Source: a virus
Reading direction: 5' to 3' (one strand)
DNA length: 25,044 nt
Virus record (IMG/VR): IMGVR_UViG_3300005468_000058
Coordinates: 1-25,044 of that record
The position numbers and the translations under genes were made by a program. The notes under the pieces were generated by a model. That model saw only the letters and a program-made list of their open reading frames with translations. It was not told where the DNA came from and made no database searches. Of this stretch, positions 13,848-19,086 are shown piece by piece (position 1 is the stretch's first letter; every line of letters begins with the position of its first letter).

Positions 13848-14014
13848 AACAGACTAGCCAATTTACAGTAGGCTGTGCCACATGCAATATGGTCAAAGGC
13901 ACAGTGTCAGAGGTAGAAGCAGAAGATCGACCTGGGTTTTTTAGAAATGTCTCTGTACCAGATCCTATGCCTACGAAGTGTGACGTATGCGGAGCAATGT
14001 TATCACGGTTATAA
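13844..14014 (+). CDS. Zinc-ribbon miniprotein (56 aa)
   Basis: ATG at 13844 overlaps the portal stop (ATGA). Two knuckles, GCATC (Cys11, Cys14) and KCDVCG (Cys46, Cys49), form a standard four-cysteine zinc ribbon, with an acidic loop between (SEVEAEDRPG). It resembles other tiny zinc proteins in the window only by this layout. Coupling to the portal suggests expression with head genes; no role is known. Confidence 0.7.
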   Translation: MKQTSQFTVGCATCNMVKGTVSEVEAEDRPGFFRNVSVPDPMPTKCDVCGAMLSRL

Positions 14015-14027
14015 CCTGGAGGGGTGT

Positions 14028-14405
14028 ATGTCAGTCGCGGTTAAAGACTTGGCGTGGATAGCTGGCCTAGCCGAAGGCGAAGGCTGCTTCCGTGAACAGA
14101 AAAAGCCACGTTGGTCTCCACATTTTGTAGTAGTGATGACTGACAAAGATGTTTTGATAAAGTTAGCTGGTCTTCTTAACACTCACGTAACAGGTCCGTA
14201 TCAATACAAAGTAGATCGTAAGCCTTTTTATAGAGTAGAAATTTCTGGCCGTAGAGCTATTGCCTGGATGTTAACTTTGTTTACATTCATGTGTAAGCGA
14301 CGACGGTTAAAAATAAAGACCTTAGTAAAAAGTTTTTTGAAACATAAGAATCACAGGAGAGCATATCACAAATACTATAACAGGGGGGAAGTACAGTGTC
14401 TATAG
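14028..14405 (+). CDS. LAGLIDADG-like homing endonuclease candidate (125 aa)
   Basis: I choose ATG 14028 because CCTGGAGGGG lies three bases upstream; a longer open frame to 13947 overlaps the zinc-ribbon gene. Residues 10-21 (WIAGLAEGEGCF) match the AGLxEGEGxF form of the LAGLIDADG helix, with Glu16 and Glu18 as possible metal ligands. The rest has a strand pattern (HFVVVMTDKDVLIKLAGLL) and a strongly basic end (CKRRRLKIKTLVKSFLKHKN). With one motif it would work as a homodimer. It is visibly more AT-rich than its neighbours toward the 3' end, consistent with a mobile insert. Confidence 0.75.
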   Translation: MSVAVKDLAWIAGLAEGEGCFREQKKPRWSPHFVVVMTDKDVLIKLAGLLNTHVTGPYQYKVDRKPFYRVEISGRRAIAWMLTLFTFMCKRRRLKIKTLVKSFLKHKNHRRAYHKYYNRGEVQCL

Positions 14406-16845: not shown

Positions 16846-17763
16846 ATGGGAAGTCCAATGGATGTTGGTAGTTTTGGTGATTTGCTCGATAAGAGCATTA
16901 CCAAGCTATTCTACAATGAGTTAGATCAATTGTCAGACCGTATCAGTGAGTTCTATCAGATGGATACTTCGAAGGATTCATTTGAGAAGTGGTCTGGTAT
17001 CGGTGAGCTTGGAGATTTCTCTGAGTTTAACGGAGCTGTGAACTATCAGAGTCAGGCACAAGGCTATGACGTGACTGCGGAGCATCGGGCATTTGTCAAC
17101 GGGTTCCAGGTGACTCGACAGATGTATGATGATGACCGACATGGTATCTGGGAGCGTAAGTCTCCCGCGTTGGCGAATTCGTACAATCGAACACGCCAGG
17201 GTCACGGAGCCAGAGTGTTCAACTTTGCGTTCAACGTGGATACGTTTTTCTATACGAATACGGAAGCCGTTTCGCTATGTAGTGACAACCACACAACGAA
17301 TTCTGGTGCGTCTACATCGACTGGTTTTGATAACTATGTCACCAGTGCGTTTTCTGCCACAGCAATTTCCGCACTTCGCACTCAGATGAGGGGGTTCCGT
17401 GGAGACGTGGCCAACAAGATCAGTGTGATGCCGGATAAGCTCCTGTATCCTATTGAGCTTGCTGACAGGGCGGATGAGATTCTGAAGTCTCAGAAAGATC
17501 CTGCGAGTGCGAATAACACCTACAACCCTCAGGGTAATGGCAGGTGGTCTGGCACGGATTGGGAGTTCCTGACTGACACGAACAATTGGTTTATGTTAGA
17601 CAGCAAGAACGCGAAGCAGTGGCTAGTGTGGTTTGACCGTATTCCTCTTGAATTTGGCAAGGCAGAAGAGTTCGACAGTTTCGTAGCCAAGTGGCGTGCG
17701 TACTGCCGATATTCGTATATGTGGCTGAATTGGAGATGGATTGCTGGAGCTGAAGTCAGCTAA
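16846..17763 (+). CDS. Major capsid protein, Mu gpT-like (305 aa)
   Basis: This subunit builds the icosahedral shell with an HK97 fold. The segment RAFVNGFQVTRQMYDDDRHG followed by RKSPALANSYNRTRQGHGAR and VFNFAFNVDTFF is typical of the Mu gpT-like capsid family (PF10124). Next come SDNHTTNSG and a conserved-looking ISVMPDKLLYP, and the chain ends in aromatic-rich CRYSYMWLNWRWIAGAEV. The length matches that family. It follows the decoration candidate and is followed by hairpins and a tRNA rather than directly by another gene. A start at ATG 16846 fits GTGAG upstream. Confidence 0.88.
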   Translation: MGSPMDVGSFGDLLDKSITKLFYNELDQLSDRISEFYQMDTSKDSFEKWSGIGELGDFSEFNGAVNYQSQAQGYDVTAEHRAFVNGFQVTRQMYDDDRHGIWERKSPALANSYNRTRQGHGARVFNFAFNVDTFFYTNTEAVSLCSDNHTTNSGASTSTGFDNYVTSAFSATAISALRTQMRGFRGDVANKISVMPDKLLYPIELADRADEILKSQKDPASANNTYNPQGNGRWSGTDWEFLTDTNNWFMLDSKNAKQWLVWFDRIPLEFGKAEEFDSFVAKWRAYCRYSYMWLNWRWIAGAEVS

Positions 17764-17830: not shown

Positions 17831-17904
17831 GCCTGATTCGTTCAGTGCTAGGATATTCCCTTTGTACGGTAATGACGGGGGTTGGATTCCTCCATTAGGC
17901 TCCA
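17831..17904 (+). tRNA. tRNA-Thr (anticodon TGT), unusual C19-G56 pair
   Basis: A complete 74-base cloverleaf folds by hand. The acceptor GCCTGAT pairs with ATTAGGC (one G-T). The D-stem is GTTC/GGAT with loop AGTGCTA. The anticodon stem is TTCCC/GGTAA (C-T mismatch in the middle) with loop TTTGTAC, so the anticodon is TGT. The variable loop is TGAC, the T-stem GGGGG/CCTCC, the T-loop TTGGATT, the discriminator T, and CCA is encoded. T8, A14, G15-C48, G18, T54, T55 and A58 are all present. Threonine identity pairs G1-C72 and C2-G71 and anticodon G35, T36 fit. Position 19 is C and 56 is G, a swap of the normal pair. Confidence 0.8.
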
Positions 17905-17912
17905 AAGGTTAT

Positions 17913-18035
17913 ATGAAAAAAGATTTGTTAAAAAAGAGTGAGGTAGGGTTGGCGAAAGTCAATAGCATGAAGCCAAAGAAACCTCGCAAGAAGATGTGGG
18001 CGAATTCAGATATCGACCAATCTTATACAAAATAA
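17913..18035 (+). CDS. Tiny basic phage protein (40 aa)
   Basis: ATG at 17913 follows AAAGG just after the tRNA 3' end. The peptide MKKDLLKKSEVGLAKVNSMK continues with PKKPRKKMWANSDIDQ and ends at TAA 18035. It is strongly cationic. The ribosome site and location in an otherwise empty gap support translation. The central PKKPRKK could bind nucleic acid; nothing more can be said. Confidence 0.52.
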   Translation: MKKDLLKKSEVGLAKVNSMKPKKPRKKMWANSDIDQSYTK

Positions 18036-18096
18036 TTCTGACGCACGTTAGGGGCGCGTAACGCTTGCGGATTCGAATAGTGCCAAAAGGATAGGT

Positions 18097-19086
18097 ATGG
18101 CTTTTTTGACGAAGTATGGTTCGTTTTGGGGAACACTCCCTGTCACGACTGGTAGGTATTTCTGGGTTGCACCTTCTAACTCATATACAGTAGAAGGCAA
18201 GGCGTATGAATCGTCAGACGATAATGACGGTCTTTCGCCTGAACGGGCAGTTAGAACAGTAAACAGAGCGATTGCGTTGGCAGATGCGAACGTCGGCGAT
18301 GTGATTATTCTCATGCCTGGTTCACACTCGGTGAGTGCCACGGTTGCGATTACAAAAGCTGGGTTAACGTTTACAGGTATTCCTGGCAATAACCAGCTAG
18401 AAAATGCTCGTGGTCCTGCTGGTAAGCGTATGAAGACGCAAATTACTAGCACAGCGACTGCTGGTATTATTTTCACAGTCTCAGCGACAGATACTGAGAT
18501 TGCACACATTCACTTCGCCCCTCCGGCTGCTGGTGGACGTGGGATCAGTCTCGCTCCGTTGTCTGGTGCGGCTAACAGAGCATACGTGCATGATTGCACG
18601 TTCCATTTGATAGCTACAGCTTCAGTTACTACTTATGGAATAACTGTTCCTGCTGGTGTAACTGCTGATTTGCTAGAAGATGTTTTGGTAAGTCGCTGCT
18701 ATTTCTTATCAGGTACTGCTGCTGCGTCAGGAGCGAACGGCCCTGGTGTTAACGTGCTTGGAACAGCTCACGGTTTAACTATTGAGCAAAGCACATTCCA
18801 GTTGAAAGGTACTGCTGCATGGGCAGCGGCTATTCTTTCATCCAATGCCGGTACACTAGGCGTAATGGCACGTGATTGCGATTTTATCACGCCTACATCG
18901 GCTACTACAGTTATGACGGTAGGGATTAACACTACTGGTCAAACCGTGGATGGTTCGTTTCAAGTATTGCGTTGCTATTTCCCAGTAGGCAGCGACGGCA
19001 TTGCTTCAACAGCGACTGCTGACGCTATTCTTGCTGAAAGTTATACAGCTGGTACTACAGGTGGAGTCTTGTTAAGTAACGCATAA
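18097..19086 (+). CDS. Right-handed beta-helix virion protein (329 aa)
   Basis: After a short N-terminal part (FWGTLPVTTGRYFWVAPSN), the chain has DDNDGLSPERAVRTVNRAI, the motif that opens pectate-lyase-like beta-helix domains (DGLSPxxAxxTxxxAI). Repeated short strands follow, such as GLTFTGIPGN, ITVPAGVT, VLVSRCYF and GLTIEQSTF. Enzyme residues cannot be identified by eye, so it may be a fibre or spike that binds or cuts polysaccharide, or a capsid decoration, as it sits next to the capsid gene. The start ATG 18097 follows AAAAGGATAGGT. Confidence 0.7.
   Translation: MAFLTKYGSFWGTLPVTTGRYFWVAPSNSYTVEGKAYESSDDNDGLSPERAVRTVNRAIALADANVGDVIILMPGSHSVSATVAITKAGLTFTGIPGNNQLENARGPAGKRMKTQITSTATAGIIFTVSATDTEIAHIHFAPPAAGGRGISLAPLSGAANRAYVHDCTFHLIATASVTTYGITVPAGVTADLLEDVLVSRCYFLSGTAAASGANGPGVNVLGTAHGLTIEQSTFQLKGTAAWAAAILSSNAGTLGVMARDCDFITPTSATTVMTVGINTTGQTVDGSFQVLRCYFPVGSDGIASTATADAILAESYTAGTTGGVLLSNA

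Follow-up and report, generated by a model that had tools for sequence, protein, structure and literature searches.

A viral tRNA-Thr with an inverted C19-G56 elbow pair, and covariation of positions 19 and 56 in phage tRNAs

The DNA analysed, referred to here as the window, is the whole 25,044-nt stretch of IMG/VR virus record IMGVR_UViG_3300005468_000058. ARAGORN, run over the whole 25-kb window, found a single tRNA, tRNA-Thr(tgt), on the plus strand at 17831-17904, between the gene for the major capsid protein and a short open reading frame. The features of the locus are:

16846-17763, plus strand: gene for the major capsid protein, directly upstream of the tRNA (PHROG 371 major head protein; Pfam Phage_capsid_4); relatives of the protein are encoded in 72 IMG/VR loci
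17831-17904, plus strand: tRNA-Thr(UGU) with encoded CCA and an inverted C19-G56 elbow pair (ARAGORN; RF00005, 40.4 bits; compensatory stem changes in the related locus L006)
17844-17850, plus strand: D-loop AGUGCUA, in which G18 is 17847 and C19 is 17848 (direct parse and ARAGORN bracket structure)
17858-17870, plus strand: anticodon-stem mismatch of C29 (17858) with U41 (17870), also present in L006
17863-17865, plus strand: anticodon UGU, predicted to read ACA, with U33 on its 5' side and A37 on its 3' side (ARAGORN)
17882-17888, plus strand: T-loop UUGGAUU, in which G56 is 17884 (direct parse and ARAGORN bracket structure)
17913-18035, plus strand: basic ORF of 40 codons, with a Shine-Dalgarno sequence (AAAGG) that starts right after the CCA of the tRNA (from the sequence)

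Rfam cmscan matches RF00005 to 17831-17901; its 40.4 bits (E 1.7e-5) exceed the gathering score of 29, and no other Rfam family is matched in the whole window. As a chance control, 200 dinucleotide shuffles of the 25-kb window yielded one ARAGORN tRNA in total. In the ARAGORN bracket structure the 5' part of the molecule is parsed as GCCUGAU (acceptor stem), UC, GUUC (D stem), AGUGCUA (D-loop), GGAU (D stem), A, UUCCC (anticodon stem), UUUGUAC (anticodon loop) and GGUAA (anticodon stem), and the 3' part as UGAC (variable region), GGGGG (T stem), UUGGAUU (T-loop), CCUCC (T stem), AUUAGGC (acceptor stem), U (U73) and the CCA, which is encoded in the DNA. The acceptor, D, anticodon and T stems of the RF00005 cloverleaf are all paired except at C29·U41, and several of the pairs are G-U. 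A first-pass annotation made from the sequence alone had described a full tRNA-Thr cloverleaf with encoded CCA and with C29-U41 as its only broken pair, and both descriptions hold. Nearest-neighbour folding of the unmodified RNA prefers another fold for the window tRNA (-23.6 vs -14.9 kcal/mol for the cloverleaf); for the L006 tRNA the cloverleaf is the predicted minimum.

The compact 7-nt D-loop makes the assignment of G18 and C19 unambiguous, and the T-loop bases are U54, U55, G56, G57 and A58. Direct parsing and the bracket structure agree that the tertiary pair of the elbow is kept but inverted, as the same annotation had read it. In cellular tRNAs G19-C56 is near-universal, and neither Rfam nor ARAGORN requires it. 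The window tRNA keeps the pair and not its identity; by every test made it is a tRNA, except for the identity of this one tertiary pair. It resembles bacterial and phage tRNA-Thr(UGU) (RF00005) in its cloverleaf, anticodon UGU, U33, A37, G1-C72, C2-G71 and CCA, and in G18, U54, U55, R57 and A58, and differs from them in C19-G56, the compact 7-nt D-loop, U73 and the C29-U41 mismatch.

The threonine determinants of E. coli tRNA-Thr are G1-C72, C2-G71, G35, U36 and A37. All five were found by direct parsing in both the window and L006 tRNAs, which also have the combination of an NGU anticodon with G1-C72 and C2-G71 taken as the criterion for a bacterial tRNA-Thr, and charging of the window tRNA with threonine would be expected. 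Threonine identity has been placed in the acceptor-stem pairs and the anticodon, and position 73 matters little (PMC9976931).

Among the relatives of the locus, the exact core of the window tRNA is found in two further contigs, where ARAGORN calls the same tRNA. In L006, where the capsid protein is 84% identical, a tRNA-Thr(UGU) lies shortly 3' of the capsid stop codon. The two tRNAs are identical at 58 of 74 bases; the other 16 include, in the stems, four double and two single compensations, all of which leave paired bases, and no pair is newly broken. C19-G56 and C29·U41 are both kept. Between the same two loci the capsid gene has changed at 165 of its 306 third codon positions, so that the bases that the tRNAs share are under selection; the swap is old and has been kept.

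This conservation bears on whether the gene is a decaying pseudogene or a sequencing artefact, with drift or error behind the letters at positions 19 and 56. The C29-U41 mismatch and the several G-U pairs would fit such an origin, but the tRNA core is identical in contigs of two metagenome records (L001, L002), the swap is kept in L006 across strong divergence, and phage tRNAs with variant pairs have no excess of stem mismatches (0.80 for C-G and 0.98 for A-U, compared with 1.14 for G-C). A decayed version lacking the paired 19/56 change was sought in the related phages and none was found; L004, L005 and L007 have instead an ordinary G19-C56 tRNA-Thr(UGU) behind the capsid gene. Decay or error is thus highly improbable and is contradicted already by this conservation, and the earlier reading of the paired inversion as compensation is well supported by L006 and by the covariation described below.

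The route by which the swap was inherited is less simple. In the capsid tree L006 groups with L004 and L005 and not with the window (92/90, below the starred level), and since L004 and L005 have the canonical tRNA, a purely vertical inheritance of the swap is in doubt; the tRNA stretch may well have passed from one relative to another. Whichever the route of descent, swapped and ordinary tRNAs of the same isoacceptor replace one another.

The first-pass annotation had offered a second possibility, namely a tRNA mimic used to cut the capsid mRNA from the next gene. The fold would then serve mainly to let RNase P cut between the two. In favour of this, the tRNA lies 67 nt past the stop codon of the capsid gene, and the Shine-Dalgarno sequence of the next ORF adjoins its CCA. 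A mimic of this kind would have the shape of a tRNA without its decoding features and would be tied to the mRNA that is cut. In the window tRNA, however, the anticodon, U33, A37, the threonine acceptor bases and the CCA are intact and conserved; relatives have a canonical tRNA-Thr(UGU) near the same place, most of the capsid relatives, the more distant ones, lack a tRNA there, conservation of the tRNA alongside the capsid gene stops at close relatives, and the other C19-G56 tRNAs lie mostly in loci that hold several tRNAs. Because the CCA runs into the Shine-Dalgarno sequence of the 40-codon ORF and the tRNA lies within the operon, cutting of the transcript would be expected as a by-product, for which no mimic is needed. 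We consider a mimic unsupported and very unlikely; the alternative offered in the same annotation, a functional divergent tRNA, is well supported by the score above the gathering cut-off and by the fold and swap kept in a diverged relative.

A strict pattern (compact D-loop, encoded CCA, C19 and G56) was run over IMG/VR with its matches checked by ARAGORN, and the same pattern with other letters at 19 and 56 was used for matched scans in which distinct, structure-checked tRNAs were counted. The complete IMG/VR scans gave 23 distinct tRNAs with C19-G56, 12 with G19-U56 and one with G19-G56; for A19-U56 there were at least 71, and for C19-C56 two true tRNAs among the 120 stretches listed. Raw counts of C19-C56 matches are misleading, most being G19-C56 tRNAs with GTGC elsewhere, and structure parsing is needed. 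A first, looser pattern was discarded: most of its matches were due to chance, and the only real tRNAs were those of L001, L002 and L006 and a tRNA-Lys of L077.

Structure parsing of the fetched viral loci revealed 40 distinct C19-G56 tRNAs (34 clusters at 80% identity, covering 13 isotypes) and 114 distinct A19-U56 phage tRNAs, numbers which mean that the identity G19-C56 does not define RF00005. U19-A56 also occurs, so that all four Watson-Crick pairs are present at 19-56 in phage tRNAs, with A19-U56 commoner than C19-G56. The statement in the first-pass annotation that G19-C56 is close to invariant is therefore correct for cellular tRNAs but does not extend to those of phages. In the tRNA arrays of L166, L162, L160, L158 and L148 several isotypes are swapped together (C-G with A-U and/or U-A). 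HNH endonuclease genes lie near the arrays of L162 and L166, and an RNA ligase gene near that of L162; among the ten ORFs checked from phages in which several tRNAs are swapped, none was recognised as a tRNA-modification gene.

BLASTN of the window tRNA alone against named phages gave short chance matches only. A concatenate of 19 C19-G56 tRNAs matched the named phages XM05, Lacusarx, Mithridates, Myrna, MseS-P1 and Kudefre; in the regions of these phages that were fetched, C19-G56 is absent and the tRNAs matched are canonical, so that the search yielded no cultured phage with C19-G56. One tRNA of Lacusarx, a tRNA-Glu, has A19-U56.

The C19-G56 pattern, applied to 84,980 bacterial and archaeal species genomes, retrieved 106 stretches, of which ARAGORN and structure parsing confirm six as true C-G tRNAs. 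Three of the six are tRNA-Glu(UUC), Bradyrhizobium accounting for two of the three; an Eremiobacterota tRNA array holds a further two, and the last is on a short Bacteroidetes contig. In its canonical form the pattern occurred about twice per genome in 41 Bacillota genomes. A19-U56 was found in two of 299 Bacillota genomes, both times in the same tRNA-Thr, and no phage gene was recognised in the few neighbouring ORFs that were read. Phages are not alone in having swapped pairs, but cells have them far more rarely by this pattern test, the comparison being one of counts. The C19-G56 tRNA-Glu(UUC) loci are L328, L333 and L402; L328 (Bradyrhizobium) is a 24-tRNA array, and L328 and L333 also hold a tRNA-Met(CAU) with the T-loop UGCAACC.

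Since the C-G and A-U loci had been fetched by means of patterns, a covariation table of all the tRNAs is inflated, and the analysis was redone on 1,890 distinct phage tRNAs from which every tRNA matching any search pattern used until then had been removed. G19-C56 is present in 1,739 of these non-target tRNAs. Position 56 is other than C in 71, and in 66 of the 71 the base at position 19 is its Watson-Crick partner (39 A-U, 16 C-G and 11 U-A). When the position-19 letters were permuted among the 151 tRNAs that are not G-C, the number of pairs averaged 27.7 over 20,000 shuffles and never exceeded 45. G19 occurs with A, G or U at 56 once, while a base other than G at 19 occurs with C56 80 times, so that position 19 is the more tolerant of the two, although a part of the 80 may be misplaced D-loops.

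A tree of 97 tRNA-Thr, nearly all with a compact D-loop, was built with positions 19 and 56 masked. It requires 17 changes of pair type; most of its forks are weak, there being few columns. Two tRNA-Thr(GGU), one C-G and the other A-U, come out as sisters with support of 100/95. After L006, the tRNAs closest to that of the window are phage tRNA-Thr with A-U (L166) or C-G (L157, L166, L138, L160), and next come further A-U and G-C tRNAs, that of Erythrobacter phage XM05 being one with G-C. The nearest sequences thus include the compact-D-loop phage tRNA-Thr, in which the elbow pair varies between C-G, G-C and A-U: tRNA-Thr(CGU) has C19-G56 in L138, L157, L160 and L166 and G19-C56 in Erythrobacter phage XM05 and Sphingobium phage Lacusarx, and the tRNA-Thr(UGU) of L166 has A19-U56. 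Like the window tRNA they have a short D-loop, a 4-nt variable region (mostly AGAC) and mismatches in the anticodon stem.

A 29-41 mismatch recurs in phage tRNA-Thr, as C-U in the window and L006 and as C-C in the tRNA-Thr(UGU) of L166, a recurrence noted also for the tRNA-Thr of L145 and L077; the tRNA-Thr(CGU) of L138, L157, L160 and L166 have mismatches at 31-39. Such anticodon-stem mismatches could matter for anticodon nucleases.

Departures from the standard elbow occur elsewhere. The staphylococcal tRNA-Gly that serve in cell walls and not in translation have non-standard elbow bases, and both the contact between D-loop and T-loop and the use of EF-Tu are weakened. The window tRNA is likewise off the standard elbow bases but keeps a Watson-Crick pair. 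Metazoan mitochondrial tRNAs also depart from the standard elbow, and a number are without the elbow structure altogether (PMC4810234), whereas the phage tRNAs keep an elbow pair.

The explanation that we favour, with a probability of roughly 0.8, is that the window encodes an ordinary ACA-decoding phage tRNA-Thr, in which it is the pairing of 19 with 56 and not its identity that is selected, swaps arising by compensatory mutation. The tRNA would read ACA codons during expression of the phage genes and would be retained as the tRNA-Thr of other phages are. ACA makes up 31-40% of threonine codons in the relatives that have the tRNA, compared with 4-26% in most of those that lack it, although this is confounded by base composition, the AT-rich tRNA-less L023 and L030 being at 42% and 33%. 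A comparison at similar GC content goes in the same direction (31% in L007, which has the tRNA and 54.7% GC, vs 19% in L008 at 56.6% GC).

The exposed face of the 19-56 pair offers the ribosome, RNase P and others a flat surface for recognition (PMC4810234). The elbow would accordingly require a flat Watson-Crick pair on which the ribosome (A-site finger and L1 stalk) and RNase P can stack, and in phage tRNAs the identity of its bases would matter less, since stacking should accept any Watson-Crick pair. A-U, the common outcome, would be reached through a G-U wobble, and the rarer C-G and U-A through a mismatch. The spectrum fits compensatory mutation, as A-U is commoner than C-G and the 12 G-U tRNAs were found. 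Counted against it are the alternative fold predicted for the unmodified window RNA and the clustering of the swaps, for which pure neutrality alone does not account: 13.1% of the other tRNAs in loci picked for one C-G tRNA are Watson-Crick variants, compared with 1.3% in control loci. Several causes of the clustering would fit: common descent, hosts of an unusual kind, a host factor exerting selection, or a faster turnover of tRNAs in some of the phages.

Selection by a host factor would take the form of adaptive escape: a swapped elbow would hide the tRNA from, or make it resistant to, a factor reading the T-loop or G19-C56, and would leave it acceptable to the ribosome. Such a factor could be a defence nuclease that cuts tRNAs, a toxin or tRNA surveillance. 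Evasion of defence is a serious rival because phage tRNAs reportedly evade tRNA-cutting defences through their anticodon and variable loops: changes in the anticodon loop have been proposed to do so (PMC10264068), as has the distinctive variable loop of T5 tRNA-Tyr, as related in PMC13096335. The concentration of swaps in particular phages (L138, L148, L157-L160, L162, L166), the RNA ligase gene in the L162 array region and the recurrence of the 29-41 mismatch in the tRNA-Thr of the window, L006 and L166 are in keeping with it. However, each of the three other Watson-Crick pairs occurs and A-U is the most frequent of them, which points to mutational access through G-U and not to escape from one recogniser, and the elbow pair goes unmentioned in the literature examined on phage tRNAs and tRNA-targeting defence. 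We know of no defence factor that reads the identity of 19-56, and consider escape unlikely. It is similarly doubtful that phages repeatedly rewire the elbow pair under selection, giving phage tRNAs that are partly orthogonal, accepted by the ribosome but missed by a host factor that reads G19-C56; a tRNA-cutting defence, a T-loop enzyme or RNA surveillance may be such a factor.

G19-C56 has been described as invariant (for example in PMC6337575), and a literature search, largely without subscription journals, found no report of inverted or covarying 19-56 pairs in phage tRNAs. Under the favoured reading of compensatory mutation, what is conserved at 19-56 of virus tRNAs is the pairing rather than particular letters. 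Phage tRNAs provide a natural double-mutant experiment, with G-U as a likely step towards A-U and change at 56 without a partner almost absent, which separates two confounded reasons for conservation, pair geometry and base identity. The swapped tRNAs are ready sequences for asking how far RNase P, T-loop enzymes, the A-site finger, the L1 stalk and tRNA-targeting defences depend on that identity, and the five arrays with several swapped isotypes are good sources. Filters that demand G19-C56 will throw out real phage tRNAs.

Three other features of the window were observed. A free-standing homing-endonuclease-like gene (13947-14405, plus strand; PHROG 5046 HNH endonuclease, weak LAGLIDADG_3) lies slightly downstream of the portal gene. 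The 40-codon ORF at 17913-18035, which matches no PHROG or Pfam family, ends in NSDIDQSYTK, and a similar C-terminal end is found in L006 and L007. At 18040-18091 on the plus strand, just 5' of the Shine-Dalgarno sequence of the gene at 18097, is a conserved pseudoknot-like leader RNA in which the hairpin loop GGCGCG would pair with the downstream CGUGCC, with one mismatch in the window (G against A). It has no Rfam family match. In 13 sequences (the window, L005, L006, L007, L008, L013, L015, L021, L025, L036, L038, L045 and L052) six of the ten proposed pairs change on both sides, for example to GAUGCG/CGUAUC in L015, GCCACG/CGUGGC in L021 and GCUGCG/CGUGGC in L036. The proportion of cells paired is 99.2%; column shuffles reach 83.5%, and sliding gives at most 46.9%, a control that leans towards the structure because this was read by eye off the same sequences. 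The RNA is perhaps a new cis-regulatory element of the gene just downstream of the capsid gene.
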